From: Treponema denticola
Lineage (GTDB): Bacteria > Spirochaetota > Spirochaetia > Treponematales > Breznakiellaceae
DNA length: 33,917 nt
Assembly (NCBI GenBank): GCA_020719845.1
Contig: DYPP01000024.1
Span: forward strand, 1 to 33,917
Reading direction: 5' to 3'
Below are positions 5,701 to 25,783 of this stretch, one piece after another; the first letter of the stretch is position 1, and each line of letters opens with the position of its first letter. The notes beneath the pieces were generated by a model. That model had not been told where the DNA came from and searched no databases. It was given only the letters and a program-made list of their open reading frames with translations. Position numbers and translations under genes: made by a program.

Positions 5701-6568
5701 CGTAAGCCCGGGTGGGGCCGGGACCGAAGAAAACGGGTTTTTCTTCTTCCTTGATGACGTCCAGGGTGGTCAGCAGGCGGATCAGGTATTTGCCGACGAT
5801 CAGGCCCCATTTGCGGCGGATATAGTCCAGCTGGCCGGTCAGGGAATAGGGCTCCGCCAGCGCCGGCGCCCGGAGCAGGTCCCAGAGGCTCTCGTCGTCC
5901 GGCCCGAAATGGGGCTGTTCGGCGAAGAAAGCGGTCAGCTCATCGATGGCTTCGGTATAGACCGACGTCGCCGTCAGGTCGGCGTCGTCGAACAGAAAGC
6001 GGTAGGGTTCAAAGGCGGGGTTCCGGTTGGCGATGGCCAGCATCAGCAGTTCTTCCAGCGCCAGGCTGCGGTTGGATTCGCCGCCGTCCGTCCCCGCCAG
6101 GTAGGCCTGGACCGAGAGTTGGCCCTGGTGGACCGACAGGGGCGGGAAGCGTTCGGTGAATTTCTTAAGCAGGGCGTCAACTTTGGGTTTGCCCAGCCGG
6201 GCTTCCAGGCGGTCCAGGGCGGCCTCGAAGGAACCCGGCGCGGCTTGCTGGCGGTACAAGGCCGCCACGTAGTGCAGGATTTCATCGATCAGGCCCATGG
6301 CGTTGAGATGACCCGCTTTGACGAAGCGTTCCGGATGCACCACGGCGTTCACTTTGGCGTTCAGCTTCTGCGTAAATTCGCGCACCCCGTGGAAGTCGGC
6401 GAATACGACGTTGCCCCGCAGTTCAAAAAGCGATTCATGAAAGCCGTATTCTTCCCGAACCGAGCGGGCGACGTGGAATTCCATGCGCGCCGTCCGTCGA
6501 TCCGCCGCTGGTCCCGCCGCCGGGCCGGTGCGGTCGAACGCGGCAAGGGTAAGGGGTAGATAATTCAT
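2795..6568 (-). CDS. Very large GH13 alpha-amylase-family enzyme (1257 aa)
   Basis: Glycoside hydrolase expected to act on alpha-glucan (starch, glycogen or maltodextrin). GH13 landmarks, in order: conserved region I GSDMVPNHTG near residue 419, the nucleophile region VRFDAAM near 537, the acid/base region LLLAEAFW near 602, and FMNNPDED near 662, where most family members have an NHD motif. About 350 residues precede the barrel and about 550 follow it; I recognise no domain in either. The C-terminus has a poly-lysine patch and a basic Lys/Pro/Ala tail. There is no signal peptide, so it is probably cytoplasmic. The ATG at 6566-6568 overlaps the malQ stop (ATGA) and has AAGGAA just upstream, so the two are translationally coupled. 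The open frame upstream of this ATG only shadows malQ. Exact substrate and product are unknown. Confidence 0.85.
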   Translation of the reverse strand: MNYLPLTLAAFDRTGPAAGPAADRRTARMEFHVARSVREEYGFHESLFELRGNVVFADFHGVREFTQKLNAKVNAVVHPERFVKAGHLNAMGLIDEILHYVAALYRQQAAPGSFEAALDRLEARLGKPKVDALLKKFTERFPPLSVHQGQLSVQAYLAGTDGGESNRSLALEELLMLAIANRNPAFEPYRFLFDDADLTATSVYTEAIDELTAFFAEQPHFGPDDESLWDLLRAPALAEPYSLTGQLDYIRRKWGLIVGKYLIRLLTTLDVIKEEEKPVFFGPGPTRAYVYSELEHEYERFSPDQDWMPRTVLMAKSTLVWMYQLTQKYGRPIERLDQIPDEELDELARRGFTGLWLIGLWERSGASREIKRRCGNPEAAASAYSLHDYDIAHELGSWGALDNLRGRCAWRGIKLGSDMVPNHTGIDSRWVMENPDRFLQLDQPPFPGYTFNGENLSNRDGVGIYIEDHYYDRSDAAVVFKRVDFHSGHARYIYHGNDGTSMPWNDTAQIDFLNPEAREAVIATIVGVCRQFPIVRFDAAMTLAKKHIARLWYPEPGHGGDIASRAEHGLSRADFDQRIPDEFWREVVDRCAVEAPDTLLLAEAFWMMEGYFVRTLGMHRVYNSAFMNMLKSEENAKYRSTIKNTLEFDPQILQRFVNFMNNPDEDTAVAQFGRGDKYFGICTLMATMPGLPMFGHGQIEGFEEKYGMEYRRSYRDEVADSGLVQRHEREIFPLLKKRRLFAGSADFALYDLFTSDGAVNENVFAYSNRFNDERALVLFNNSYHRATGWIRRSAVVAAKGASGGGKAQHRSVSEALGLNGGGARFTVFREQRSDLWFIRPSRDIAEEGLFIALDGYQSQIFLDIHEVEDTDHGRWRRLCDELSGRGVADLHAAFQDLFLRDLYAAFLEVAKPSYFNAIRGFFVPETAASGKKGGPGAPKAAPFIETLHEATLRFIRIAVEYLDGASGKYESFHRDRELPALEAEALWGAFAQSIQRLIHLAEYSAKAPTALQAEGKAYLALVAERFAADSRAAAYAAGYAVLSLSRSLVGQGASGEDGRRLNDHWCLDRKLRESYQAAGFPGDESYRIVELIKLILSRTAPADPAPYQTGSLAQACAAEAFSADDSRLYLGVNTFEGVTWYNKERFDEALFYASLCLVMEGDAALEPAGDAKKKKNAPGESTATPHPSKINAAQWIRRIDGIARTYRELERAEAGSGYQVAALLAALDGDATAKTRLKPAKAAKPVQATVKKGSPRP

Positions 6569-11917: not shown

Positions 11918-12017
11918 AAAACTTCAGTTTTTTAAAGTCAACCATTAAAAACCGCAAATCCTGAAAGGATTTGCCAAGGCAAATCTAAAAACCAACCGAG
12001 TTTTTAGATATGCCCTC
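11912..12017. repeat. Hairpin repeat element (copy 2) between convergent genes
   Basis: AT-rich island of about 106 bp with three hairpins: a 12-bp stem (11912-11923 with 11926-11937), a 9-bp stem (11954-11962 with 11966-11974) and a 10-bp stem (11983-11992 with 12000-12009, loop CAACCGA). The right end reads CCCTCAAT. On the minus strand, the order TGAGG, stem, CTCGGTT loop, stem matches copy 1 at 2047-2087, although the stem bases differ. The left end does not match copy 1 well, so the left boundary is uncertain. Both flanking genes end inside it. It may also act as a bidirectional terminator. Confidence 0.65.
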
Positions 12018-13983
12018 AATCCGCGGTAACGTACTCCCCGAACTCGTCGTCTACGGAGATCAGCAGATCCCCCAATTCGTGGTCGCCCAGGTCGGCCACC
12101 GCGCCCAGGGTGCGCGGCCGGCCGGTGTCCAGGTCCAGGTCGCCCCGGCGCCAGGTGGCTTCGTAGAAGAGCAGCTTCTTGTCCGCCGGCACGGCCATAT
12201 CGATCAGCCGCTGGGCGCCGGCGCGGACCAGGGCGGCCTTGCGCCGGCCGTCGTCGGCGTCGCCGATTTCCCACACCCCCAACTGAATCGGGTTGTCCGG
12301 ATTCTGCACGTCCCCGAAAAATTCGCCCCGCAGCAGCCGGTCCCGGGTGGCGCCCAGGTAGGGCACAAAGTCGGCGTGCTCCGCCAGCTTGCGGTCCGTG
12401 GCGCCGAAGCGCCCGGTGGCGGGGTTGAGCGTAAAGATGACCGTTCTTTCCGTCGCCTGGCCGTAGGACTTGAAGCGGATCCCCGCCCAGGCGCCGTCGG
12501 GGTCGACGCTTTCCATGGCCGCGTCCCCCCGCTTGACCAGCCGGGCCGCGTCGGCCAGCCATAGGCGCAGTTCCGGCGTGTCGGTCTTGAAGGATTCCAG
12601 CTCTTCCTTGAAGGCGGTGGAGGTGGTGCCGCCGTAGCGGAAGCTGAGAAAAAGCCGGTACAGTTCCCGGACGTTGTTCTTGCGGGCAAACTGCAGGATC
12701 AGGTCCCAGACCAGAATCTCCAGCTTGCGGCAGCGCCAGATGAAGGCCGACAGCTCGGCGTGGTCCGCGGCGGCGTCGGAGGCGCCGACGGCGGGCACGT
12801 CGGAGGCGCCGACGGCCTTGAATTCCGCCAGTCGGGTTTCCAGGGAAGCCAGTTCGCTTTCGTCCCGCAGCTCCGCCTTGGGCAGGCGGATGGTCCAGCG
12901 CGTGCCGCCGCCGTTTTCGCTGCGCACGGAAATGTTTTCCGCGCCGAAGGCGGCGTAGATCTGGCGCGTGCCCTGGCCTTCGCCGGAATCGGCCTTGGTG
13001 GTGACGCCCACAAAGCGGGGTTTGCCGTCCAGGCCCGGCGCCAGGCGCTCGCTGTCGATGCCGATGCCGTTGTCCTCCACGGACAGCACGATCCAGCCCG
13101 CGGCTGCTTCCAGGGAGATGGAAAGGACCCCCGGTTTTTCCGCGGACCGGATGGCGTCCAGGGCGTTGGACACCAGGTTGACGATGGCCCGGCCGGCCTC
13201 CAGGTAGTGGGCCCGGGCTTCGCCCACGTGGGGCGCGAATTTGAGCCTGAGCTCGCAGGGCACCGGCGAATGCTCGATCATGGGGATGATGCGGTCGATG
13301 ACCAGGTCCTTGAGGTTGACCGTGCGGAAGCGCTGGATGGAATCCCGGAACAGGTTGAGGGTGTTGATCAGCGCCGTGGTCTCCCGGTTGATGTCCTCGA
13401 TGATCCGGTCGCAGTTCTCCGCCGTCAGCGCGCCGGCCATGTCGGCGATCAGGCGGATGGCCTTTTTGGCGTCATGCCGGATCTTGCCCAGCTCTTCGGC
13501 GGATCCGGACTCCACCCCCGCCTTGGCGATGGCCTCCTTGACCGTCCGGGTTTCGCCTTCCAGGCGGATGAAGTTGAGCGCCCGCCAGGCCAGGCGTTCG
13601 CGTTCGACAAAGCCCCGGCGCTTGTAGAAGGACAGCGATTCGGTCTGGCGTTCCCAGATGTAGAGGTCCATGGCCGAAAAAGCCGGCGCTTCTTCCGCCA
13701 GGTGGTTCAAAAAGGCCGAACCGATGCCCTTGCCCCGGCCGAAGGGACTGGTGACCTGCCGGTAGATGTGCAGCCGTTTCTTGGCCGGGTCGATCCAGGT
13801 TTCGATATAGCCCAGGATTTCCCGCTCCTCTTCCCAGACGTAGGAATGGTCGTAATCCTTTTCCAGGGATTCGTCGGCCACGAAGGGGGAAGGAATGATG
13901 AAGCTGTCGATGTTCAGGCTGGGATTGCGGCGGATGCGGTCTTCCAACTCCGTGGTCAGCGCCTTGATGTAGGGGGAACTCAT
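12016..13983 (-). CDS. GNAT acetyltransferase-histidine kinase fusion protein
   Basis: A 655-aa protein with an unusual domain order. Residues about 25-145 are a GNAT acetyltransferase fold with the acetyl-CoA loop GRGKGIGSAFL at 82-92. Residues about 160-225 are helical with a possible H-box KIRHDAKKAI (His170). Residues about 262-368 are a GHKL ATPase domain: N-box NLVSNALDAI (Asn273), G1 box DNGIGID 304-310, and GEGQG 334-338. The last 280 residues are unrecognised; a linker there holds a duplicated VGASD segment. No membrane helix is seen, so it is cytoplasmic. It might be a kinase that senses through the GNAT domain, or an ATP-dependent enzyme that only borrows the fold. Its ATG overlaps the HAD gene stop (ATGA). 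Its own TGA lies in the hairpin repeat. Confidence 0.75.
   Translation of the reverse strand: MSSPYIKALTTELEDRIRRNPSLNIDSFIIPSPFVADESLEKDYDHSYVWEEEREILGYIETWIDPAKKRLHIYRQVTSPFGRGKGIGSAFLNHLAEEAPAFSAMDLYIWERQTESLSFYKRRGFVERERLAWRALNFIRLEGETRTVKEAIAKAGVESGSAEELGKIRHDAKKAIRLIADMAGALTAENCDRIIEDINRETTALINTLNLFRDSIQRFRTVNLKDLVIDRIIPMIEHSPVPCELRLKFAPHVGEARAHYLEAGRAIVNLVSNALDAIRSAEKPGVLSISLEAAAGWIVLSVEDNGIGIDSERLAPGLDGKPRFVGVTTKADSGEGQGTRQIYAAFGAENISVRSENGGGTRWTIRLPKAELRDESELASLETRLAEFKAVGASDVPAVGASDAAADHAELSAFIWRCRKLEILVWDLILQFARKNNVRELYRLFLSFRYGGTTSTAFKEELESFKTDTPELRLWLADAARLVKRGDAAMESVDPDGAWAGIRFKSYGQATERTVIFTLNPATGRFGATDRKLAEHADFVPYLGATRDRLLRGEFFGDVQNPDNPIQLGVWEIGDADDGRRKAALVRAGAQRLIDMAVPADKKLLFYEATWRRGDLDLDTGRPRTLGAVADLGDHELGDLLISVDDEFGEYVTAD
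12775..12816. repeat. Imperfect tandem duplication in the GNAT-kinase linker
   Basis: An 18-bp unit occurs at 12775-12792 and 12799-12816 (24-bp period) inside the gene and encodes two VGASD segments. It lies in a low-complexity linker after the ATPase domain, so it probably affects only linker length. Confidence 0.6.
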
Positions 13984-14824: not shown

Positions 14825-17695
14825 CTACCCCTTCTTCAAAGCCTCCACGTAGTCGGCAAAGTCCACCTCGTTGGCTTTGAGGCCCCGGGAATAGACAAAG
14901 TCGGTGGCCATCTTGGCGGCGATGATGGCTTTGATGTACGACGCCGGGACGCGTTGCAGCAGGACCGGCAGGCCGAGCAGGTCCAGCAGGACCTGGGGCG
15001 TATAGTCGGTCAGGATCCGGTCCCGGATGGACGGTTCGTCCGCCAGGGCGGATTCGCGCACCGCGTCGGCGATCTGGTTGATCTTGCCCGAGACGACGTT
15101 GGACAGGGTACAGAGCGGCAGCTTGGTGGTGGCCCGTTCCTGCCAGAGCAGTTCGAATTCCGACCGGGCGTTGCCCCGGATCTTGACGATGATGTCGTCG
15201 ATATAGGCTTTGCGGAAGGCCGGCAGGCTGCCGTCTTCGGCGGCCCGCAGGTGGGCGTCGTACTCGGCGTCGTTCAGAGCCAGGGAAGCGAAGACTTCGA
15301 AGGAAGAAGAGGTGACGCCGCCCTTGTTGGTGCTGGCGTCCTTGAGCACCACCACGCCCCGTTCTTCCAGGCGCAGCCGCGCTTCTTCGGTGATGAAGAG
15401 GTTGGCGCCTTCGACGATGTAGGGGAACTTGGCCCGGCCCTGTTCGTCGAAGAGCTGCTTCCAGTTGCCGATGTTCACCGCTCCGGGGCGTCCGCCGCAG
15501 GGCACAAAGAGGTCCGCCCGGGCGTAGGGGCCCAGGTGGAAGGCGTTGCGGAATTCTTCGCCGTTGGCCACCTTCGCGCCATCCGGCAGGGTCAGGTCCC
15601 GGTCGTTGACGGAGACGAAGAAGCCGCCCTTGGACAGCAGCGTGCGGTCGAACTCCAGCACCATGGCCCGTTTTTTGGCCAGCCGGGCCAGTTCCTTGCG
15701 GTCCAGGCCGCGGGGATCGTAGATGACCCCCGAACCGTCCACGATGGCCGTGGTCTTGTCCTTGGAAACCAGGATTTCGTTGCTGCCCAGGTCGCCGTCG
15801 GGTCCGCCGGTCTGCAGCTTGCGCACGTCTTTTTCCGAGATGCCCTGTTTTTCCAGCAGACCCAGCACGTATTCGTGGATGCCGATGGTGGTCATGCCGT
15901 ACAGGTCGTGGGGAATGCCGCCCAGCTCCGGCGCCTTGCCGGTGCTGAAGGCCTTCCAGAAGGGGTAGCCCCGCAGCCGGGCGTGCAGGGCGGCCCAGTC
16001 CATCAGCGGGGCGCTGCCCTCGTCGGGGCCCAGGAACAGGATTTCCCGGGCCCGGGCCTGGCCCTGGCCGTCGACTTCCATCAACAGGTCCAGCAGGCCG
16101 TCCACGTAGTCCTTGAAGGCCCGTTCCGCCGCGTCCTGACTCTTGAGGTTGAGCAGGATGGTGCCCTTGGAGCCGCCCTCGGGGATGTCCTTGTTCTTGC
16201 GCTGTTGCGTCCAGGCCAGGTTGTAGTTTTCGGTAAAGATGGTATCGATGTTGTGGGCGAAAATATCGATGGACCGGGAACGGACGATGCGGATGCCCCC
16301 CCGGGCGATGTCCCGGAAGCGGACGTGGAAGCCGATGAAGTCGTGGCCAATGAGGAAAAAGAGGCCGAAGGGCCGTTCGGGGAAGTCCGCCGGGTCCAGG
16401 ATGGACGGGTCCAGCCGGTAGGACATGCAGGTTTTTTCCTTCTGGTAAAAATTGGTCCGCTGGATGGTTTTGTTGAACACCAGAAAGTACTGCAGGATGG
16501 CCCGGTCCTTGGCGTACGAGACTTCCCGGTCGATGAGCGTGCGGATGCGCTGTTCCTCGGCGGCGTAGGCTGTTTTGTCGTCGGACTTGAAGCGCAGCTG
16601 GAAGTGCCGGTACAGCTGTTCGACGATGGCCGCCTGGTTGGCCACGGTGTTGGAGATGCGGGACGAGGAGTAGGTGTCCTTGATCAGGTGCAGCTTCAGG
16701 TTGTCCACGATGCCCCGGGCTTCGGGCTGGTCCTTGAGCGCCCGCTGCAGGGTCTGGTATTCGTCGGTTAAGAGGGACAGGAACTGGTGGGTAAAGGCGC
16801 CGGCGGACAGGGCGTACATGGCCGCCTGGGGCGAGAGCGCGCCGCGGTAGAACAGGCTGGTGATCGGGCTGTCGGGCAGCATGAGCGAGACGTTCAGGTC
16901 CGCGGTCAGGTCTTCGACGGCGGCTTCGGACAGTTTGGGAAAATAAAAGCTGACGATCAGTTTTTCGTCCGCGAAGGGTTCGATGTACTTGCGGCGCACC
17001 GTCAGGTCGTGCTTGGCCAGCAGGTGCGAGAAGGTGGTCAGCAGCTGGCGGTGGGCGCTGCCCTTGATGCCGATCATGATCCGGGTTTCGTCGGATTCAC
17101 CCTTGAAGGATACGGAAACGTAGGGCGCTTCCCGGCCGTTCATGGTGAGCCAGGTGTCCCGGTAGCGGGTGACCGTCTCGGGCACCGCCCGGGAAAGAAA
17201 GACCGTACTGGCCGCCAGCTCGAAGGTGTCCGCGGCCTTGCCGCCCTTGCGCACCGGAAAGACGGGTCGGGAAAGGATATAGAAGCGGAAGGGCCGGCCA
17301 TGGGTAGCCGCCTTGGTGATGTAGCTTTCCAGGTGGAAGTCGGGATACCGGCCTTCGATGCGTTCTTCCACTTCCAAGGTCTTTTCCCGGCTGTCCTCGA
17401 TGATGTAGACCGCCGTGTCCTCCCGCTCGCCGATCAGCTGGACGCCCGAGCCGCCGCCGCCGTGGGTGCTGATCAGCTCCGAGGCGCTCAGGGAAAGCAG
17501 GTGCCGGGCGATGTCCAGTTCCGGGGTGGTGCGGAAGTAGTATTCGTCGATGCCCATGTCCAGGATGAAGCGCTCCATCTCCTGGTGAGATTTTTCGCTG
17601 GTCATGTAGCCCGTGTTGACCAGGTATTCTTCAATCCGCACCAGCTGTTCCAGCGAAAGGATGCTCTTGGCGGCGATATCGTTCAGGCTCTTCAT
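14825..17695 (-). CDS. gdh: NAD-specific glutamate dehydrogenase, large GDH2-like type
   Basis: Oxidative deamination of L-glutamate to 2-oxoglutarate and ammonium, probably with NAD. At 956 aa it is far longer than the usual 450-aa hexameric GdhA and shorter than the roughly 1600-aa bacterial GDH-180 class; it is closest in size and layout to the fungal GDH2 (about 115 kDa) class. Catalytic-region motifs are ARGGIRIVRSR, DIPEGGSKGT (near residue 507), TGGPDGDLGSNEI in the dinucleotide fold, CGGRPGAVNIGNW and EGANLFIT. The N-terminal 400 residues lack clear motifs and are probably regulatory. AGGAG lies 8 nt before the ATG. It starts 11 nt after the racemase stop, so both are co-transcribed, consistent with acidic amino-acid catabolism. 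Confidence 0.9.
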   Translation of the reverse strand: MKSLNDIAAKSILSLEQLVRIEEYLVNTGYMTSEKSHQEMERFILDMGIDEYYFRTTPELDIARHLLSLSASELISTHGGGGSGVQLIGEREDTAVYIIEDSREKTLEVEERIEGRYPDFHLESYITKAATHGRPFRFYILSRPVFPVRKGGKAADTFELAASTVFLSRAVPETVTRYRDTWLTMNGREAPYVSVSFKGESDETRIMIGIKGSAHRQLLTTFSHLLAKHDLTVRRKYIEPFADEKLIVSFYFPKLSEAAVEDLTADLNVSLMLPDSPITSLFYRGALSPQAAMYALSAGAFTHQFLSLLTDEYQTLQRALKDQPEARGIVDNLKLHLIKDTYSSSRISNTVANQAAIVEQLYRHFQLRFKSDDKTAYAAEEQRIRTLIDREVSYAKDRAILQYFLVFNKTIQRTNFYQKEKTCMSYRLDPSILDPADFPERPFGLFFLIGHDFIGFHVRFRDIARGGIRIVRSRSIDIFAHNIDTIFTENYNLAWTQQRKNKDIPEGGSKGTILLNLKSQDAAERAFKDYVDGLLDLLMEVDGQGQARAREILFLGPDEGSAPLMDWAALHARLRGYPFWKAFSTGKAPELGGIPHDLYGMTTIGIHEYVLGLLEKQGISEKDVRKLQTGGPDGDLGSNEILVSKDKTTAIVDGSGVIYDPRGLDRKELARLAKKRAMVLEFDRTLLSKGGFFVSVNDRDLTLPDGAKVANGEEFRNAFHLGPYARADLFVPCGGRPGAVNIGNWKQLFDEQGRAKFPYIVEGANLFITEEARLRLEERGVVVLKDASTNKGGVTSSSFEVFASLALNDAEYDAHLRAAEDGSLPAFRKAYIDDIIVKIRGNARSEFELLWQERATTKLPLCTLSNVVSGKINQIADAVRESALADEPSIRDRILTDYTPQVLLDLLGLPVLLQRVPASYIKAIIAAKMATDFVYSRGLKANEVDFADYVEALKKG

Positions 17696-17706
17696 AGGGT
17701 CTCCTC

Positions 17707-18483
17707 TTACAGGGGCTTCAATTTTTCCGGCGCCGCTTCCCGGATCAGGGCGCGGGCCAGGATTTCTACCGGATCGACGAAGGGCACGCCCGCAAAATCC
17801 CGTTCCGGCAGGGCCAGGGGGATCTCCGTGCAGCCCAGGATGACCAGTTCGGCGCCCTGGTCGATCAGCAACCGGACCATAGCCAGCATTCGTTCCCGGG
17901 CGCGGCCGGTAACCGGGCTAACGGCCTTGATGCCCCATTCCCGGTCGTAGATGCCTTCCTGGACTTCTGCCTGCCGGTCCTCGCCGACCTGGACGATCAT
18001 TGTAGCACGACTCTGCAGCAAGCGGGGATAGATATTGGTCAGACGCGTTCCGGTGGTGGACAAAAGTCCGATTCTGCGGACCCGGGGATGGACTTGTTGG
18101 ATGAAGCGGGCCGTTTCGGCCAGCATGTGCAGCACGGGCAGGTCGACGTCCGCCCGACGCAGCAGGTCGAGGAAGGGGTCGAATATTTCCGGGGCGTGGA
18201 AAGTGTTGCAGGGGATGCCCGCCACGGCCTGCTGGCCGAAAAGCCCCAGGGAGGCGACGGCGGCGCGCATGACCGCGGCCATGCCGGCTGCCGGATTGGT
18301 CGCCGACTTGCCTAAAAGATAGGCCGTCCGGTCGCCGATAGCGGCGGAGCGGGAAAAATGGTGGACGCTGAGATGGGTCTGGTCGCTGCCGTCGGTCAGG
18401 GTGTGCTCGATGATTTTTTGGTGCAGCGCGACCCCGGCCATGGGGCCGACGCCGCCGCCGATGACGATGGTTTTTTCTTTCAT
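17707..18483 (-). CDS. Aspartate/glutamate racemase family protein
   Basis: PLP-independent racemase using two cysteines as acid/base pair. Cys92 is in GIPCNTFHAP and Cys218 in ILGCTEIPL, the two signatures of the Asp/Glu racemase superfamily; both are intact. The length, 258 aa, is slightly longer than typical aspartate racemases. It is more like the broad-specificity RacX/YgeA/aspartate racemase group than MurI, as the N-terminus VIGGGVGPMAG suggests. Located between a dicarboxylate/amino-acid symporter and a glutamate dehydrogenase, it probably converts imported D- or L-aspartate/glutamate so that the catabolic enzyme can use it. Actual substrate is not proven by sequence. Confidence 0.85.
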   Translation of the reverse strand: MKEKTIVIGGGVGPMAGVALHQKIIEHTLTDGSDQTHLSVHHFSRSAAIGDRTAYLLGKSATNPAAGMAAVMRAAVASLGLFGQQAVAGIPCNTFHAPEIFDPFLDLLRRADVDLPVLHMLAETARFIQQVHPRVRRIGLLSTTGTRLTNIYPRLLQSRATMIVQVGEDRQAEVQEGIYDREWGIKAVSPVTGRARERMLAMVRLLIDQGAELVILGCTEIPLALPERDFAGVPFVDPVEILARALIREAAPEKLKPL

Positions 18484-18506
18484 TTCCTGATTCCTGTACC
18501 GGAAGC

Positions 18507-18532
18507 GGCGGCCCGGAAAAATCCGGGCCGCC
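18507..18532 (-). other. GC-rich intergenic hairpin between symporter and racemase genes
   Basis: Perfect 11-bp stem (18507-18517 with 18522-18532) with an AAAA loop, lying in the 75-nt gap after the symporter stop. On the minus strand no T-run follows, so it is more likely an mRNA-stabilising or attenuating stem than a full terminator. It could make symporter mRNA more abundant than racemase-gdh mRNA. Confidence 0.55.
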
Positions 18533-18558
18533 TTTGTCTGCGTTTCAGCGCGGGCGGC

Positions 18559-19872
18559 TTAGGCCCACTTGGCCATGTCCAGTTCTTTTTCGGTTTTGGC
18601 CACGATGGCGGTGCCCGCCATGTCGCCGGTGACGTTGAGGCTGGTGCGGCCCATGTCCAGCAGGGCGTCGATGCCCAGGATCATGGCGTAGGCCGCGGCC
18701 ACCGCCGAGCCCGCTTCGACCTTGAGGCCCACGGATTCCAGCACCATGAGCAGCATGATGGCTCCCGCGCCGGGTACGCCGGCGGTGCCGATGGAAGCCA
18801 GGGTGGCGGTGATGACCACGGTCAGCTGCTGGTTGAAGCTCAGGGGCCGGCCGATGGCGTAGCCGATGAACATGGCGCAGACGCCCAGGTAGATGGCGGT
18901 GCCGTCCATGTTGATGGTGGCGCCCAGGGGCAGGGTAAAGGAGCTGATGTTCCGGGGAATGCCCAGGTTTTCTTCGGACACGCGCATGGTCACCGGCAGG
19001 GTGCCGCCGGAAGAACGGGTGACGAAGGCGGTGATCATGGATTCGTTGGCGCCCTTGAGGAACTTGATGAAGCCCAATTTATAGACCGACAGCAGTCCGC
19101 CGTACACGCCTACCAGGTGGACGATCAGGCCCAGGTAGACCACCAGGGTGACCATCAGCAGCGGCCCCAGGGCTTTGGCGCCCTGCTGGGCGAATACCTG
19201 GGCGATCAGGACGAAGACGCCGATGGGGGCGTACTGCATGATGCCGCCGACGACCTTGTACATGGCTTCCGCCGCGGCGTTGCAGACGTCGAACAGGAAC
19301 TCCGCGCCCTTGGCCACCGCGGGGATGGTGGAGTCCTTGACGTAGGAGATGGCCAGTCCGAAGACGACGGCGAAGAAGATGATCGGCAGCACGTCGCCCT
19401 TGGCCAGGGATTCAAAGGGGTTGGTGGGGACGATATTGAGAATGGTCTGGACCAGGGTCGGCGCCACCATCTCCTTGCCTTTGAGCGCGGCGTCGCCGAC
19501 GATACCCATGCCCGCGCCGGGCTGGAAGATGTTGGCGAACACGAGGCCGATGGTGACCGCCAGGGCGGAGGTCAGCAGGTAGAAGGCCATGATCTTGACG
19601 CCCACCCGGCCCAGGCGGGAGGGGGCGATGCTGGCGGCGCCGGCGATCAGGCTGAACAGGATGACCGGATTGACGATCATCTTGAGCAGCCGGACAAAGA
19701 GGTCGCCGAAGAATTTGCTGTTGTCGACGAAGGGTTTGACCGCGTCGGGGTTAAAACCCAGGATGATGCCGACGACGGCGCCCAGAACGAGGCCGACCAG
19801 GATCCGGACCAGCAGGTTGGTCTTGAAATACCAATCCAGCAGGCCCTTCTTTGCGGTGGTTTGCGCTGACAT
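18559..19872 (-). CDS. Dicarboxylate/amino-acid:cation symporter (GltP/GltPh type)
   Basis: Inner-membrane Na+- or H+-coupled importer of the DAACS family, 437 aa with eight transmembrane segments and two re-entrant loops expected. The hairpin-1 motif [14 protein letters not shown] (near residue 286) is very close to the glutamate/aspartate transporter GltPh. NMDGTA (near 321) and GVPGAGA supply the ion and substrate site. These favour acidic amino acids over C4-dicarboxylates, but discrimination by eye is limited. The ATG at 19870-19872 has AAGGAG 6 nt upstream, part of a possible switching hairpin. The gene is just downstream of a two-component system and upstream of an Asp/Glu racemase and GDH. 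Confidence 0.93.
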
Positions 19873-19878
19873 ACCGAA

Positions 19879-19924
19879 CTCCTTGAGGAGGAATAAGGAG
19901 CGTCAAAGTCGCTCCCGTACTCAT
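19879..19924 (-). promoter_or_regulatory. Symporter leader with alternative hairpins and an upstream start codon
   Basis: On the minus strand, GGAGCG (from CGCTCC 19910-19915) can pair with CGCTCC (from GGAGCG 19897-19902). Alternatively CTCCTT (from AAGGAG 19895-19900) can pair with the symporter Shine-Dalgarno AAGGAG (from CTCCTT 19879-19884). The two stems share bases and cannot coexist, so one frees and one hides the ribosome site. An ATG at 19922-19924 with AAGGA 7 nt upstream opens a 57-codon out-of-frame ORF that spans the leader and runs into the symporter gene, ending at 19751. Translating it would disturb the stems. This is a predicted regulatory region only. Confidence 0.4.
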
Positions 19925-19998
19925 GGTAAGGTCCTTTTTGCGACACTGAAATGCTCCCAAGGATGTATATTCGCCGTTTCCGGGTCGATCCCAGACAC

Positions 19999-20024
19999 AG
20001 GCATACACCAAAAGGTGTATGCCT
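19999..20024 (-). terminator. Hairpin at the end of the response regulator gene
   Basis: Perfect 11-bp stem (19999-20009 with 20014-20024) and AAAA loop, overlapping the response regulator stop at 20023-20025. No clear T-run follows on the minus strand. It probably ends or attenuates the kinase-regulator transcript before the symporter gene, which has its own 150-nt upstream region. Confidence 0.5.
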
Positions 20025-20703
20025 AGACCAGATTTTCCCTGATGGCCTTGCGGACGAACTCGGCCTTGGTGCTGACCCCCAGCTTCTGGTAGATGTGCAG
20101 GATGTGCTTTTTGGCGGTGGAAGCGGCGATGCCGTGCTTTTCGGCGATCTCCTTATGGGTCAGGCCGTCGGCGATGTCCCGCAGCACCTGGTTTTCCCGG
20201 GCCGAAAGGCCGTAGTCCCCGTGTTCCCGTTCGTCCCCGGCGCGCTTGATCTCTTCCAGCAGGCGCCGGGCGACCCGGGGGCTGAGGGGCGCCCCGTCGG
20301 AAACGGAACTGATGATCTGTTCCAGCAGCAGCTCGGGCTTGGTGTTCTTCAGAATGTACCCGTTGGCCCCGGCCCGGATGGAATCCAGCAGCCGGTCTTC
20401 GTCCTCGAAGACGGTAAAAATGATGATGTTGAGGTCCGGGTAGGACTTGCGCAGCCGCCGGGTCGCTTCGATGCCGTTCATCTGGGGCAGCCCGATGTCC
20501 ATCAGGACGACGTCCGGCACGGTCAGGGAAGGCAAGAAGTCGAACAGGGCTTCCGCCCGGTCAAAGGTCTTGAGCAGCTGGACGCGGGCGTCCAGGTTGA
20601 GCAGGTAGGACAAGCCTTCCCGCACTTCCTTCTGGTCCTCGACGATGACCAGCTTGATCCGTTTGGCGCCGCCGTCGGAATTCATTCCGCCTCCGGAATT
20701 CAT
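20023..20703 (-). CDS. NarL/FixJ-family response regulator
   Basis: DNA-binding partner of the adjacent kinase, 226 aa. The receiver domain (about 16-135) has the acidic pair Glu22-Asp23 in VIVEDQ, the phospho-acceptor Asp69 in VVLMDIGLP, and the conserved Lys in YILKNT. A LuxR-type helix-turn-helix follows at about 160-220, with LSARENQVLRDIADGLTHKEIA. The ATG at 20701-20703 overlaps the kinase TGA. A second in-frame ATG at 20683-20685 has GGAGG just upstream; both arise from an 18-bp tandem duplication, so either start is possible. The nearest downstream gene in the same direction is the glutamate/aspartate symporter, the most plausible target. Confidence 0.93.
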   Translation of the reverse strand: MNSGGGMNSDGGAKRIKLVIVEDQKEVREGLSYLLNLDARVQLLKTFDRAEALFDFLPSLTVPDVVLMDIGLPQMNGIEATRRLRKSYPDLNIIIFTVFEDEDRLLDSIRAGANGYILKNTKPELLLEQIISSVSDGAPLSPRVARRLLEEIKRAGDEREHGDYGLSARENQVLRDIADGLTHKEIAEKHGIAASTAKKHILHIYQKLGVSTKAEFVRKAIRENLV

Positions 20704-20711
20704 TCCGCCTC
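20676..20711. repeat. Perfect 18-bp tandem duplication at the kinase/regulator junction
   Basis: The unit CGGAATTCATTCCGCCTC occurs at 20676-20693 and 20694-20711. On the coding (minus) strand it carries GAGG and an ATG, so the regulator's ribosome site and start codon are duplicated. Confidence 0.85.
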
Positions 20712-22454
20712 CTCCCGGGGTGCACGGGCCAGGGGCAGGCGCAGGCGGTACTGGGTTCCCCGTCCCTTTCGGGAGGCCAGCGCGACGCTGCCGCCCAGCT
20801 GTTCGACCCGGAAGCGGATGTTGGCCAGCCCCGACCCGGCGGTGCGCCGGCGTTCCGGGTCAAAGCCCTGGCCGTTGTCCCGGAAGCGGATGTCCAGGAA
20901 TCCGGCTTTGGCCGTCAAGGACAGGCCGACCCGGTCGGCGCCGGAATGCTTGAGCACGTTGCTGACCAGTTCGTCGAAGACCTTGGCCAGTTCGGTGCCT
21001 GCGGCGGCGTCCAGGGCGTCGGCGGCGTGGGCGGGACGGGACCGGAAGACCAGGGCGACCCGGTTGCGGGCCAAGCGGCCGCGGATTTCCGCCGCCAGCC
21101 GGGAGGTAAAGTTTTCCGGCGCCGGGCGGTCTTCCTTCAGGCCGCCGATGATCTCCTTCAGGTTCCGCACCGCGTCCAGGCAGTTGGCCTCGATGTCGTC
21201 GAAGAGCTCCCCCAGCTTTTCCGGCTCCCGCTCGCGGGCGCTGCGGGCCACGTTGTTGCAGAAAAAAATGTTGGTCAGCCGAGCGCCGATGCTGTCGTGC
21301 ATGTCCCGGTAGATGCGTTTGCGTTCCTCCACCACCCGCAGCCGGGTGTTCTCTTTCTGCAGGCGGCGCAGCTTTTCGGTCCGCTGCCGGACCTTGGATT
21401 CCATAGTTTCGGCGTACTCTTCCACGGTTTCCAGCAGTTTGTTCAGTTCCCGTCCCAGCAGCCCGAACTCGTCCCGGGAGACCACCGCGACCCGGGCGGT
21501 GCGTTCGCCCTTTTCCCGCCGGTTGATGACCGAGACGATGCGTTGCAGGGGCGAAGAAATCAACCGGTTGGAGATGGCGCCGAGGGCGACGATCAGCAGG
21601 GTCATCAGAAAAATTTCGGTGATCGAAATCAGGGACAGCACCGCCCGGGCGGAAGCCATGACCGCGTCCACGGGGATGCCGACCAGCAGGAACCAGGGCA
21701 CCGGCGCGCTGCGGCGGTAATGGAACAGCATGGCGCGCCCCTCGTAGTCGGCGGTGAACTTGCCCGCTTCCTTCTTCAAGAGCTCCCGGATCTCCGGCAG
21801 GGGAAAGGCGGGCAGGGGCAGGCTGACCAGCGCTTCTCCTTCCGTGTCGGCGCTGATGATGTTGCCGTCCCGGTCCAGGATCAGGGCGCGGCCGTTCTTG
21901 GGGATGTTCAGGTCGGTCAGGATGCTCTTCAGGTTCCTCAATAATATGTCCAGGCCGATGACGCCCACAAAGCCCCCCCGGGCGTCGCGCACCTGGTAGA
22001 CGCAGGTGATGCCCAGGTCGTTGACGCTGGCGAAGCGGTAGGGCGGGGAAACGGAGAACCCGTCGGCGGCCAGGGCGGCCTGGTACCAGGGGCGTTGCCG
22101 CGGATCGTAGCCCGGGGGGAAGGTGGGCGTGTAGTCGACGAATTCCAAGCCGTGGCCCCACTCGTACATCCTGCCGTCCGCGGTGCCCAGATAGATGGCC
22201 CGGATGTAGCGCTTCCAGGCCAGGACGGAAGAGATGAACAGGTCCCGCATGTCTGCGGCGCGCACTTCCTTGACCGCCTGGGTCCCCGCCAGACCCACGG
22301 CCAACGCTTCAAAACTGCCGAACAGGCTCCGTACCCGGTTGTCCGTCCCCTCCAGGATGGTAAAGGCCACCTCGTCGGCGGTTACCAAGGAAAAATCCCG
22401 CAGCATGCGGAAGCTGATCAAGTAGATGGCGACCAAGAACAGGACCGTGGCCAT
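20700..22454 (-). CDS. Cache-domain sensor histidine kinase (NarX/LiaS-type core)
   Basis: Membrane sensor kinase. From the ATG at 22454 it has an N-terminal transmembrane helix, a periplasmic double-Cache domain (about 25-265), a second transmembrane helix (about 272-297), a HAMP-like region and coiled coil (about 300-375), a HisKA_3 domain with RDMHDSIGARLTNI (His386), and an HATPase domain (FDELVSNVLKHSG, DNGQGFD). The Cache domain has Tyr116, Arg121, Trp123, Tyr124 and Asp169, the spacing of the dCache_1AA amino-acid-binding motif. In frame upstream of this ATG lies EKSGWSINFKFTLLIL, which would complete the first helix. It is preceded by GGGAG at 22512-22516 and an ATC at the expected start position, so the true start may be 22505. 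The gene overlaps the regulator by 4 nt. Confidence 0.92.
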   Translation of the reverse strand: MATVLFLVAIYLISFRMLRDFSLVTADEVAFTILEGTDNRVRSLFGSFEALAVGLAGTQAVKEVRAADMRDLFISSVLAWKRYIRAIYLGTADGRMYEWGHGLEFVDYTPTFPPGYDPRQRPWYQAALAADGFSVSPPYRFASVNDLGITCVYQVRDARGGFVGVIGLDILLRNLKSILTDLNIPKNGRALILDRDGNIISADTEGEALVSLPLPAFPLPEIRELLKKEAGKFTADYEGRAMLFHYRRSAPVPWFLLVGIPVDAVMASARAVLSLISITEIFLMTLLIVALGAISNRLISSPLQRIVSVINRREKGERTARVAVVSRDEFGLLGRELNKLLETVEEYAETMESKVRQRTEKLRRLQKENTRLRVVEERKRIYRDMHDSIGARLTNIFFCNNVARSAREREPEKLGELFDDIEANCLDAVRNLKEIIGGLKEDRPAPENFTSRLAAEIRGRLARNRVALVFRSRPAHAADALDAAAGTELAKVFDELVSNVLKHSGADRVGLSLTAKAGFLDIRFRDNGQGFDPERRRTAGSGLANIRFRVEQLGGSVALASRKGRGTQYRLRLPLARAPREEAE

Positions 22455-22518
22455 CAGGATGAGCAGGGTGAACTTGAAATTGATGCTCCAGCCGGACTTT
22501 TCGATTTCCGTCTCCCAA

Positions 22519-22597
22519 AGGAGCCGAGTTTATCGGGATTTACAGGCCCTAAGGGGCACCCTTAGGGCTTGTAAATCCACAAGCCCGACAGGCTCCT
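22519..22597. repeat. 79-bp hairpin repeat (copy 3) in the kinase leader
   Basis: Outer arms AGGAGCC (22519-22525) and GGCTCCT (22591-22597) enclose a 20-bp stem with one G-T pair (22536-22555 with 22559-22578, loop GCA). On the minus strand it begins GGAGCCTGTC, similar to GAGGCTGTC of copy 1, but its kinship is less certain. No direct repeat is visible at its edges. It sits between the predicted kinase promoter and the coding region, so it would fold in the mRNA leader. Confidence 0.65.
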
Positions 22598-22602
22598 AGT
22601 TC

Positions 22603-22631
22603 AGGATAGCATCCGGGATCGGAGGAATCAA
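22603..22631 (-). promoter_or_regulatory. Promoter of the kinase-regulator operon
   Basis: Minus strand: -35 TTGATT (22626-22631), a 17-nt spacer, and -10 TATCCT (22603-22608). The start point would be at about 22596, the first bases of the hairpin repeat. A GC-rich stem (22632-22639 with 22656-22663) lies directly upstream, in the divergent region shared with the HDAC gene. Confidence 0.45.
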
Positions 22632-22688: not shown

Positions 22689-23708
22689 ATGATCCTTTAC
22701 GACCCTGCCCTGGCGCTGCGCTTCGGCGATTACGGCATCCTCATTCCCGTGCTCGACTCCCGGGCCGACGCGGTGGCCGAAGGCCTGCACGCCGTCCTGC
22801 ACGGCCACGACGAGTCCTGGTTGCGCCGGGGTGTGGTCGAGCGCATCCAACGGGAAGACCTGGAACGCGTGCACGATCCGGAATACGTCCGGCGGCTGTA
22901 CGCCGGCGGGCCGGAGCTGGAGGCGGAACTGCTCCAAACCTACGAATTGATCGGGTCCGACGGACGTCCGCACCGCTACGCCCCGGACCGCGCCGTCCGG
23001 CCCCTGTCGGCGCTCTTCGACACCATCCTGCTGCAGGTCGCCGGCACCTACCAGGCGGCGCGCCTGGCCCTGGAAGGCGGCTTCTGCTACTTTTTGGGCG
23101 GCGGCATGCACCACGCCCGCCGGGACGGGGGGTCGGGCTTCTGCCTGCTGAACGATGCGATGATCGCTTTGGCCCGCCTGCGCGCCGAAGGCCGCTCCCG
23201 CCGGGTTTGGATCATCGACCTGGACGCCCACAAGGGGGACGGCACCGCCGAGCTGGCCCGGGGCGATCCGGACACGCTGACCCTGTCCATCCACATGGCC
23301 GCGGGCTGGCCGCTGGACGCGGCGGGGCTGGAAGCCGCCCGCCGCCAAGGCCGGGGACCGGACCGGGCGCCGCTGGCGCCCAGCGACGTGGATATTGCTG
23401 TGGGCCGTGGGGAAGAAGCGCTGTACAACAGCCGGCTGGATCTGGGACTCCGGCGGCTGGAAGCCCTGTCCGGCGGCGACTCGCCGGACCTGGCCATCGT
23501 CGTGGACGGCGCCGACCCCTACGTGCACGACGCCCTTCCGTCCACCGCCGACCTGGCGCTGAGCCTGGACCAGTGCGTCGCCCGGGACCTGCTGGTCCTG
23601 GAATTTTTGCGCAGCCGGGATATCCCGTCGGCCTGGCTGCTGGCCGGCGGCTATGGTCCCCGGGCTTTTGAGGTGCCGACGGCTTTTTTGGCTCGTGTTC
23701 TGGGGTAA
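22689..23708 (+). CDS. Histone-deacetylase-family (AcuC/acetylpolyamine amidohydrolase) protein
   Basis: Zinc-dependent deacetylase, 339 aa. Landmarks: the catalytic His pair in GGGMHHA (141-142), zinc ligands Asp179 and His181 in IIDLDAHKGDG, the third ligand probably Asp276 in VVDGADPY, and a C-terminal GGYGPRAF loop near the substrate tunnel. In bacteria, relatives remove acetyl groups from polyamines or from acetyl-CoA synthetase (AcuC); no acetyl-CoA synthetase or polyamine gene is nearby, so the target is open. A GNAT-domain gene lies elsewhere in the window, but no direct link is visible. The gene stands alone, divergent from the kinase, with a leaderless-looking start. Confidence 0.88.
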   Translation: MILYDPALALRFGDYGILIPVLDSRADAVAEGLHAVLHGHDESWLRRGVVERIQREDLERVHDPEYVRRLYAGGPELEAELLQTYELIGSDGRPHRYAPDRAVRPLSALFDTILLQVAGTYQAARLALEGGFCYFLGGGMHHARRDGGSGFCLLNDAMIALARLRAEGRSRRVWIIDLDAHKGDGTAELARGDPDTLTLSIHMAAGWPLDAAGLEAARRQGRGPDRAPLAPSDVDIAVGRGEEALYNSRLDLGLRRLEALSGGDSPDLAIVVDGADPYVHDALPSTADLALSLDQCVARDLLVLEFLRSRDIPSAWLLAGGYGPRAFEVPTAFLARVLG

Positions 23709-23790: not shown

Positions 23791-23851
23791 AACCGCCCTT
23801 GATAAAGGGGACGAGAATCGCTAGCATGGTCGGCACGGAGGCTTGTCCGGC

Positions 23852-25783
23852 ATGTTGGTCGTCCTTTCAAAAAACGTTGAACCCCGCGACAAGGATCGCA
23901 TCCGTTCCTTTTTGAGCGAACGGGGCTTTTCGGTGCGGGAACAGGTTTTTGGGGAAGACGCCATCATCGGCGCCGCCGGAAAGGGCCCGGTGGACATCCG
24001 GGAGCTTTCTTTGCTGCCCGGTGTGGAACGGGTAGCCCAGACGTCCAAACCCTACGAGCTGGCTTCCCGGGAAACCCAGCCCGAGGACAGCATCGTCTCC
24101 GTCGGGCCGGTCAAGATCGGCGGGGCCCGCATCACCGTCATCGCCGGGCCCTGCGCCGTCGAAAGCCGGGACCAGATCATGGAGACCGCGGCCCGGGTGC
24201 GCGAATCCGGGGCGGTCATGCTGCGGGGCGGCGCGTTCAAGCCCCGCAGCAGTCCCTACGCCTTCCAGGGCCTGGGCATCAAGGGCCTGGAGTACATGCG
24301 CGAAGCCGGAGACGCCTACGGCATGCCCATCGTCACCGAAATCGTGTCCTCCGAAACCGCGGCGCAGATGAAGGACCTGACCGACATGTTCCAGATCGGC
24401 GCCCGGAACATGCAGAACTTTGAACTGCTGAAGAAGGTCGGCTCCCTGGGCATGCCGGTGCTGCTCAAGCGCGGCCCCTCGGCCACCATCGAAGAATGGC
24501 TCTTGTCCGCCGAATACCTGCTGGCCTCGGGCACCCGGGACGTGGTGCTCTGCGAGCGGGGCATCCGCACCTTCGAGACCTATACCCGCAACACCCTGGA
24601 CATCTCCGCCATTCCGGTGGTCAAGAAGCTTTCCCACCTGCCGGTCATCGTCGACCCCAGCCACGCCGTGGGCATCCGGGCCATGGTCAGCTCCGCCGCC
24701 CTGGCGGCCATCGCCGCCGGCGCCGACGGCCTGACGGTGGAAGTGCATCCCCGGCCCGAAGAAGCCCTGTCCGACGGGCCCCAGTCGCTGTATCCGGAAC
24801 AGTTTGAAAAGCTGATGCGCGATATCGAAGCTCTGTCCCCGGTGGTGGGCAAGGAACTGCTGCGCACCCCCCACGCCGTCCTGAGCGTCGGCGACCGCGT
24901 GCCCGCAGCCGCCGCGGCAACGGCGTCCAGTGCGACGACGGTCGCTTTTTCCGGCGAGAGCGGCGCCTTTGCCGAGCAGGCCCTGCTGCGGGCTTTCGGC
25001 GAGGAAGCGCCCCGGCTGGCGGTGGACTCCTTCCCGGCGGTCTTCGACGCGGTGCTGGAAGACAAGGCCCGCTACGGCATCGTGCCGGTGGAAAACAGCC
25101 TGGCCGGATCGGTGCACGAGAACTACGACCTGTTCATCCGCTATCCGGACATCGGCATCGTGGGCGAGCTGAAGCTGCGCATCGTCCACTGCCTGATCGC
25201 CCATCCCGACGCCGACCTGGAGGGTATCCGGGTGGTCCGCAGCCACCCCCAGGGCTTCGCCCAGTCCAGGGAATTCCTGGACCAGCATCCGTCCTGGAAG
25301 CTGGAGCCCTGCAACGACACCGGCGGCTCGGTGGCGTCCATCAGCCGCGAGGGCCTGACTGATACCGCCGCCATCGCCGGCGAGGCGGCGGCCAAAATCT
25401 ATGGCCTTAAAATTCTGAGGGAAGGGATCGAGACCAATCCGCTCAACTATACCCGTTTCGTGATCCTGGCCCGCCGGGACGAGGGCAGGGCCACGCCGAT
25501 TCCGCCTTCCCTGGGATCCGGCACGGCCAACAAGGCATCCATCGTGTTCACCACGCCCAACGAGCCGGGTTCGTTGTTCGTCTGCCTCAAGATCCTCAGC
25601 GAACGGGGCATCAACTTGTCCAAGCTGGAGTCCCGGCCGATTCCGGGCAAGCCCTGGCGTTATATGTTCTACGCGGACGTGTCCATTCCCGAAGCCGAAG
25701 GCGTCTTCGACCGGGCGATGGAAGAACTGAAAACGAAGACCGAGGACTTCCGCTTCCTCGGAGCGTATCGGGCCTCGCTGTAG
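23852..25783 (+). CDS. Bifunctional DAHP synthase-prephenate dehydratase
   Basis: A 643-aa fusion. Residues 1-70 are a small ferredoxin-like regulatory domain as in Thermotoga-type DAHP synthase. Residues about 85-345 are the DAHP synthase barrel (IAGPCAVES 97-105, RGGAFKPRSSPYAFQG 125-140), joining phosphoenolpyruvate and erythrose 4-phosphate at the shikimate pathway entry. Residues about 363-545 are prephenate dehydratase (VAFSGESGAFAEQA, NDTGGSV, NYTRFVIL with the TRF motif), committing prephenate to phenylalanine. Residues about 560-640 are an ACT domain with LESRP, the phenylalanine-binding signature. No chorismate mutase domain is present. GGAGG at 23837-23841 supports the ATG at 23852. 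It leads the branched-chain operon, with ilvN starting 20 nt after it. Feedback inhibition by phenylalanine on both activities is likely but inferred. Confidence 0.93.
   Translation: MLVVLSKNVEPRDKDRIRSFLSERGFSVREQVFGEDAIIGAAGKGPVDIRELSLLPGVERVAQTSKPYELASRETQPEDSIVSVGPVKIGGARITVIAGPCAVESRDQIMETAARVRESGAVMLRGGAFKPRSSPYAFQGLGIKGLEYMREAGDAYGMPIVTEIVSSETAAQMKDLTDMFQIGARNMQNFELLKKVGSLGMPVLLKRGPSATIEEWLLSAEYLLASGTRDVVLCERGIRTFETYTRNTLDISAIPVVKKLSHLPVIVDPSHAVGIRAMVSSAALAAIAAGADGLTVEVHPRPEEALSDGPQSLYPEQFEKLMRDIEALSPVVGKELLRTPHAVLSVGDRVPAAAAATASSATTVAFSGESGAFAEQALLRAFGEEAPRLAVDSFPAVFDAVLEDKARYGIVPVENSLAGSVHENYDLFIRYPDIGIVGELKLRIVHCLIAHPDADLEGIRVVRSHPQGFAQSREFLDQHPSWKLEPCNDTGGSVASISREGLTDTAAIAGEAAAKIYGLKILREGIETNPLNYTRFVILARRDEGRATPIPPSLGSGTANKASIVFTTPNEPGSLFVCLKILSERGINLSKLESRPIPGKPWRYMFYADVSIPEAEGVFDRAMEELKTKTEDFRFLGAYRASL

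Follow-up and report, generated by a model that had tools for sequence, protein, structure and literature searches.

The window, by which we mean the whole stretch of DNA analyzed here, is a contig of 33,917 nucleotides from a 3.3-Mb genome assigned to Treponema denticola. On its minus strand, genes for a sensor kinase, a response regulator, a symporter, a racemase, and an NAD-type glutamate dehydrogenase (GDH) follow one another in the order of transcription. A sequence-only reading of this DNA had placed the sensor, symporter, racemase, and GDH genes on one strand, and all four were located there. The features, in the direction of transcription, are as follows.

20700 to 22454, minus strand: dCache_1-HAMP-HisKA_3-HATPase sensor histidine kinase, 584 amino acids from the first ATG (Pfam; best PDB match PctA).
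20023 to 20703, minus strand: NarL/FixJ-type response regulator with receiver and LuxR-type helix-turn-helix (HTH), 226 amino acids (Pfam).
20003 to 20020, minus strand: predicted distal operator box, ATACACCTTTTGGTGTAT, the 18-nt core of a perfect 11-bp inverted repeat at 19999 to 20024.
19951 to 19968, minus strand: predicted proximal operator box, ATACATCCTTGGGAGCAT, from a gap-free alignment with 17 other loci.
19923 to 19928, minus strand: -10-like hexamer TACCAT of the symporter promoter (multilocus alignment).
18559 to 19872, minus strand: SDF/DAACS-family Na+-coupled acidic amino-acid symporter of the GltPh/GltTk type, 437 amino acids (Pfam SDF, GltTk match).
18507 to 18532, minus strand: perfect 11-bp GC-rich hairpin in the symporter-racemase gap.
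17707 to 18483, minus strand: two-cysteine, PLP-independent Asp/Glu-type racemase, 258 amino acids (Pfam Asp_Glu_race, TIGR00035).
14825 to 17695, minus strand: large-class NAD-type GDH, 956 amino acids, in the size range of about 115 kDa (four Pfam domains).

The regulator gene overlaps the kinase gene by 4 nt, and the spacing between the racemase and GDH genes is 11 nt. The hairpin was considered as a terminator of the symporter gene and rejected; no T-run accompanies it in the direction of the operon, so it probably does not terminate transcription there. An Rfam search of the window returned no matches. Just 5' of the kinase gene, a near-perfect 20-bp inverted repeat (22530 to 22605) was seen, with related REP- or MITE-like forms at about seven other sites in the genome.

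The kinase reading frame probably extends about 17 codons 5' of the first ATG, to an ATC at 22505, and would then encode about 601 amino acids, since the first transmembrane segment begins before that ATG. No in-frame ATG, GTG, or TTG was found between the upstream stop codon and the ATG inside this segment. The ATC (22503 to 22505, minus strand) follows closely on a GGGAG and agrees with the start in homologues, and a related locus (L123, 9285 to 9287) likewise has an ATC at this place. A noncanonical start or an assembly error are both possible explanations.

The sensor carries dCache_1 (83.8 bits, cut-off 45), HAMP, HisKA_3, and HATPase_c domains and the H-box RDMHD. The amino-acid-binding motif claimed for its Cache domain was confirmed residue by residue: Y116, R121, W123, Y124, and D169 align with Y121, R126, W128, Y129, and D173 of PctA, which was also the best PDB match (E 3e-16), and Y139 aligns with PctA Y144. 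The equivalents of all six residues found in PctA, PctB, and PctC are thus present, but those proteins are chemoreceptors, whereas the dCache domain of the window feeds a NarL-type histidine kinase. Among the eight dCache_1 matches of the genome, the motif was found in the window's sensor only. In a set of 19 sensors, comprising that of the window and relatives 40 to 62% identical to it, the YDPRxRPWY core, the PY, and the D were invariant. A profile of this set ranked amino-acid receptors at the top of the PDB matches (PctA 3e-20, 3c8c/5ave, PctB, and PctC) and placed the amine receptor McpX (6d8v, 3e-5) and the purine receptor McpH (6e-4) far lower. AlphaFold modeling of the Cache region from two sequences gave a mean pLDDT of 53, too poor for fold searches.

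In the receptors, Y121, R126, and W128 contact the ligand carboxylate and two acids hold the ligand amino group (PMC6974571). In PctA these acids correspond to D146, numbered from the alignment, and D173; the paper names the homologous pair of PctC. The second of these acidic contacts, D146, lies outside the five-residue motif and, unlike in PctA, PctB, and PctC, is absent here; F141 occupies its place, and F or Y was found there in 19 of 19 sensors, so the amino group would be held differently. Taken together, the uniqueness and invariance of the motif and the profile ranking make an amino-acid sensor with a changed amino-group contact the best reading of these sequences. Likeness to amino-acid receptors at the profile level does not fix the identity of the ligand. 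The pair may govern the symporter and yet respond to another amino acid (GABA, proline, or a neutral one) or to a dicarboxylate, as a habitat cue and not the transported substrate. This is consistent with the aromatic residue, which is shared with the dCache chain 6mni_A, and with the diversity of dCache_1 ligands (PMC12415202), but all motif residues that contact the carboxylate are invariant and the only other boxed gene found encodes an asparaginase II, which makes aspartate outside the cytoplasm. A nonacidic or nontransported ligand is therefore considered somewhat unlikely, and an acidic amino acid is the preferred ligand.

The regulator contains Response_reg (82.5 bits) and GerE (51.2 bits) domains, the receiver motif LMDIG, and an HTH recognition helix, STAKKHILHIYQKL, that is nearly invariant among the regulators of relatives. 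The adjacent HisKA_3 plus HATPase kinase and the receiver plus GerE/LuxR HTH regulator together place the pair in the NarL-type two-component class. The earlier proposal of a sensor joined to an importer had passed over the regulator gene (20703 to 20023) between the two, with which the sensor forms a two-component system.

The gene order was examined by a kinase search in 197 genomes of the order, which gave matches in 26 genomes and clear orthologues, with 43 to 63% identity, or the window itself in 19. Kinase, regulator, and symporter were adjacent in 16 of the 17 symporter-bearing loci, the window included (16 genomes of the order), so the expected cluster is indeed conserved in near relatives. 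In the remaining locus, that of G058, a symporter-racemase pair lies about 22 kb from the kinase on the same contig. The order is kept across three families of the order, and the racemase gene directly follows that of the symporter in 10 loci. Several kinase-less genomes have the symporter next to a less closely related racemase that is often transcribed divergently, and one of them (L207) also has an asparaginase beside the symporter; the symporter-racemase link is therefore recurrent. Other neighbors differ between lineages. A threonine-synthase-like PLP enzyme is encoded upstream of the kinase in the f5 genomes, and in L015/L124 a type II asparaginase gene precedes the kinase and an aminotransferase gene follows GDH. 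An accidental same-strand run of amino-acid genes without shared control, to which the variable GDH and the NagD-like HAD gene behind it would lend some color, neither being a conserved neighbor, is extremely improbable given the order kept over three families and the operator that these loci share.

The symporter matched Pfam SDF with 397.8 bits and GltTk from end to end (E 5e-149). It shares with GltTk and GltPh the motifs NMDGT (at 321) and LDMGRT (at 405) and differs from them in the third HP1 serine, which is G here (RSSGGT) and S, G, or N among relatives. LDMGRT..N, the acidic-substrate motif of TM8 known from GltPh, was kept in every locus with readable sequence at this position. The racemase matched Asp_Glu_race (82.2 bits) and TIGR00035 (111.7 bits, cut-off 93.1), and its residues C92, C218, R52, and K186 are kept across relatives. 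Both catalytic-cysteine motifs and the Arg and Lys of PDRT and GVKA align with the aspartate racemase of Pyrococcus horikoshii (1jfl), although the window's protein is about 30 residues longer.

The top NCBIfam match of the racemase was nonetheless the CuyB model NF052483 (135.4 bits, below the cut-off of 190), which raises the reading of the locus as a module for cysteate, the sulfonate analogue of aspartate, with CuyB as the racemase and a symporter that imports cysteate. In other genomes, divergent racemases encoded next to the symporter even exceed the CuyB cut-off (203 to 213 bits), but with 251 bits so does the aspartate racemase of P. horikoshii, and the model therefore cannot be used to claim cysteate. 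No sulfo-lyase-like assignment was obtained among the neighbors tested, and the links to asparaginase and GDH favor aspartate. A cysteate module is accordingly very unlikely, and aspartate is retained as the probable substrate.

Both aspartate enantiomers are bound and transported by GltTk, D-aspartate with an affinity four to six times lower (PMC6482001), and by this analogy the earlier suggestion that D-amino acids are used at the locus is plausible. None of the present results points to peptidoglycan as their source or to a gut habitat. A stronger version, in which the sensor is tuned to D-aspartate or other D-acidic amino acids and the aromatic residue in place of PctA D146 reshapes amino-group recognition, is doubtful. 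Were it true, the operon would be a switch by which spirochaetes specifically scavenge D-aspartate.

The GDH contains ELFV_dehydrog (132.1 bits), Bac_GDH_CD (75.8 bits), GDH_2nd (57.7 bits), and GDH2_N (34.7 bits), all above cut-off, and these domains with a chain near 1000 amino acids assign it, by sequence, to the large 115-kDa class of NAD-GDH. Its distribution is patchy, with 3 of 197 genomes of the order and 11 of 393 of the phylum, and GDH2_N was found in 0 of 14 control genomes. Only in the window's family does GDH lie 3' of the racemase (three loci in two genomes), and another member of this family has GDH within a lysine/DAP cluster without the kinase. On this distribution GDH was rejected as part of the module's core; it is a late addition. 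The proposed pathway of sensing, import, racemization, and deamination thus finds support for the sensor, importer, and racemase, which are tied by gene order, by the symporter-racemase clusters of kinase-less genomes, and by the shared operator, but not for GDH. The locus illustrates how a stable core of sensor and importer acquired first neighbors such as a racemase and the rare large GDH. In L146 (7644 to 10709) the GDH gene lies among aspartokinase and DAP genes.

Every regulator-symporter gap contained a 7-2-7 NarL-like palindrome with the consensus ATACWCCCTTTGGTGNAT, whose core consists of two heptamers 2 nt apart (TACACCT-TT-TGGTGTA). The best box per gap had 0 to 3 mismatches, compared to 4 to 5 at best in 200 dinucleotide shuffles of each gap. 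The proximal box lies exactly 22 nt before the -10-like hexamer, gap-free over 18 aligned loci, and by this spacing its center falls near -43. The hexamer reads TACACT in most relatives, TACCAT in the window, and TATCAT or TACAAT elsewhere. Each of the three loci in the window's family has two boxes, spaced by exactly 52 nt or roughly five helical turns. A sigma-70 scan found nothing above shuffles, as expected for a promoter with a poor or absent -35 region.

The palindrome is a predicted site that sits in the regulator-symporter gaps where a NarL-type site would be expected. An engineered NarL site, TACCCCT-AA-AGGGGTA, has the same 7-2-7 form, and at napF and yeaR NarL acts as an activator from sites of this form located at about -40 to -49 and -38 to -47, respectively (PMC4549865). 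The NarX/NarQ-NarL system of Escherichia coli likewise combines a HisKA_3 kinase and a NarL-type regulator with an inverted-heptamer site near -43. It differs in its nitrate sensor, in place of which the window's kinase has dCache, in its half-site (TACCCCT, compared to TACWCCY here), and in its regulon, which here apparently comprises one operon. In the genome of the window, the distal box was the sole site without mismatch and the proximal box the sole site with one; five sites were found at up to two mismatches, compared to four for a reversed-pattern control. The asparaginase promoter in L015 shows the same arrangement of box, 22 nt, TACTAT, and then ribosome-binding site and ATG.

The control set was provided by symporter orthologues in many kinase-less genomes of the order. 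Of the kinase-positive genomes, 16 of 16 had a box 5' of the symporter, G058 with its distant kinase among them, compared to 1 of 26 kinase-negative genomes (Fisher P = 1e-10, relatedness ignored). The one exception, G082, is 72% complete. In 14 of the 25 box-less kinase-negative genomes the symporters were about 79 to 83% identical. At the level of sequence, operator and kinase are tied across genomes. If the box instead served an unlinked factor other than this regulator, or were simply a conserved part of the symporter's own promoter, its presence in G082, where no kinase was detected, and in L136 and L139, which retain it without a symporter, would be accounted for. This is quite unlikely, as the box is missing from the 25 kinase-negative genomes, among them those 14 with closely similar symporters, goes with the kinase even where the symporter is about 22 kb away, and has a form that suits the NarL family. 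The preferred reading, a site for the linked NarL-type regulator, has a practical side; the clean co-occurrence makes the ligand question directly testable by a reporter, and the box can be used for a regulon search in further genomes.

The two loci without a symporter were inspected separately. In L136 (11772 to 11890) the box and the -10 are kept, followed by the apparent last ~14 symporter codons, and it looks like the symporter was lost behind an intact switch or collapsed in assembly. In L139 a perfect box (6133 to 6150) and a TACACT-like hexamer stand before the convergent uvrA with no symporter behind them.

Based on the gene order, the sensor motif, the operator with its spacing, and its tie to the kinase, all of them read in the sequences, the locus is probably an operon dedicated to nutrient sensing. 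A small amino acid would bind to the periplasmic dCache_1 domain, most probably an acidic one such as aspartate and possibly also glutamate or the D-forms, and the ligand-bound kinase would phosphorylate the NarL-type regulator. The regulator would dimerize on the 7-2-7 palindromes at about -43, and in the window's family also at about -95, and recruit RNA polymerase to the symporter promoter with its poor -35 region, so that the symporter-racemase(-GDH) unit is activated. The Na+-coupled GltPh-type symporter would take up L- and probably also D-aspartate, the racemase would interconvert the enantiomers, and in the window's lineage GDH would remove the amino group via transamination to glutamate, if metabolism runs in this direction. 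Most likely, then, the two-component pair directly activates the uptake of an acidic amino acid. Activation is favored over repression because the site overlaps the missing -35, and aspartate is favored because symporters of this type prefer it and because the only further gene with a box encodes an asparaginase.

Two-component systems for acidic amino acids are already known. AauS-AauR of Pseudomonas also serves acidic amino-acid use and governs transporter genes (PMC7962211). In contrast to the NarL-type regulator and GltPh-type symporter of the window, AauR is an RpoN-dependent enhancer-binding protein and the transporter is the ABC system AatJQMP. The searched open-access literature contained neither the combination of a dCache_1AA-type sensor, a NarL-type kinase and regulator, and a GltPh-type symporter nor the operator, and no description of a spirochaete two-component system with aspartate, a racemase, and a symporter was found in it. 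The locus is a well-supported new example of familiar bacterial nutrient control, in which the sensor motif, the operator, and the promoter geometry of a two-component system are defined and the regulon apparently amounts to one operon.

Further genes of the window were noted outside the operon. A hydrolase of the histone deacetylase family is encoded at 22689 to 23708, divergent from the kinase. At 12016 to 13983 lies a gene for a 655-amino-acid fusion of an N-terminal GNAT acetyltransferase with a histidine-kinase-type HATPase that has no recognized HisKA domain. The region 23843 to 25783 encodes a 646-amino-acid fusion of DAHP synthase, prephenate dehydratase, and an ACT domain, the two parts of which match separate places in the related loci L127 and L129.
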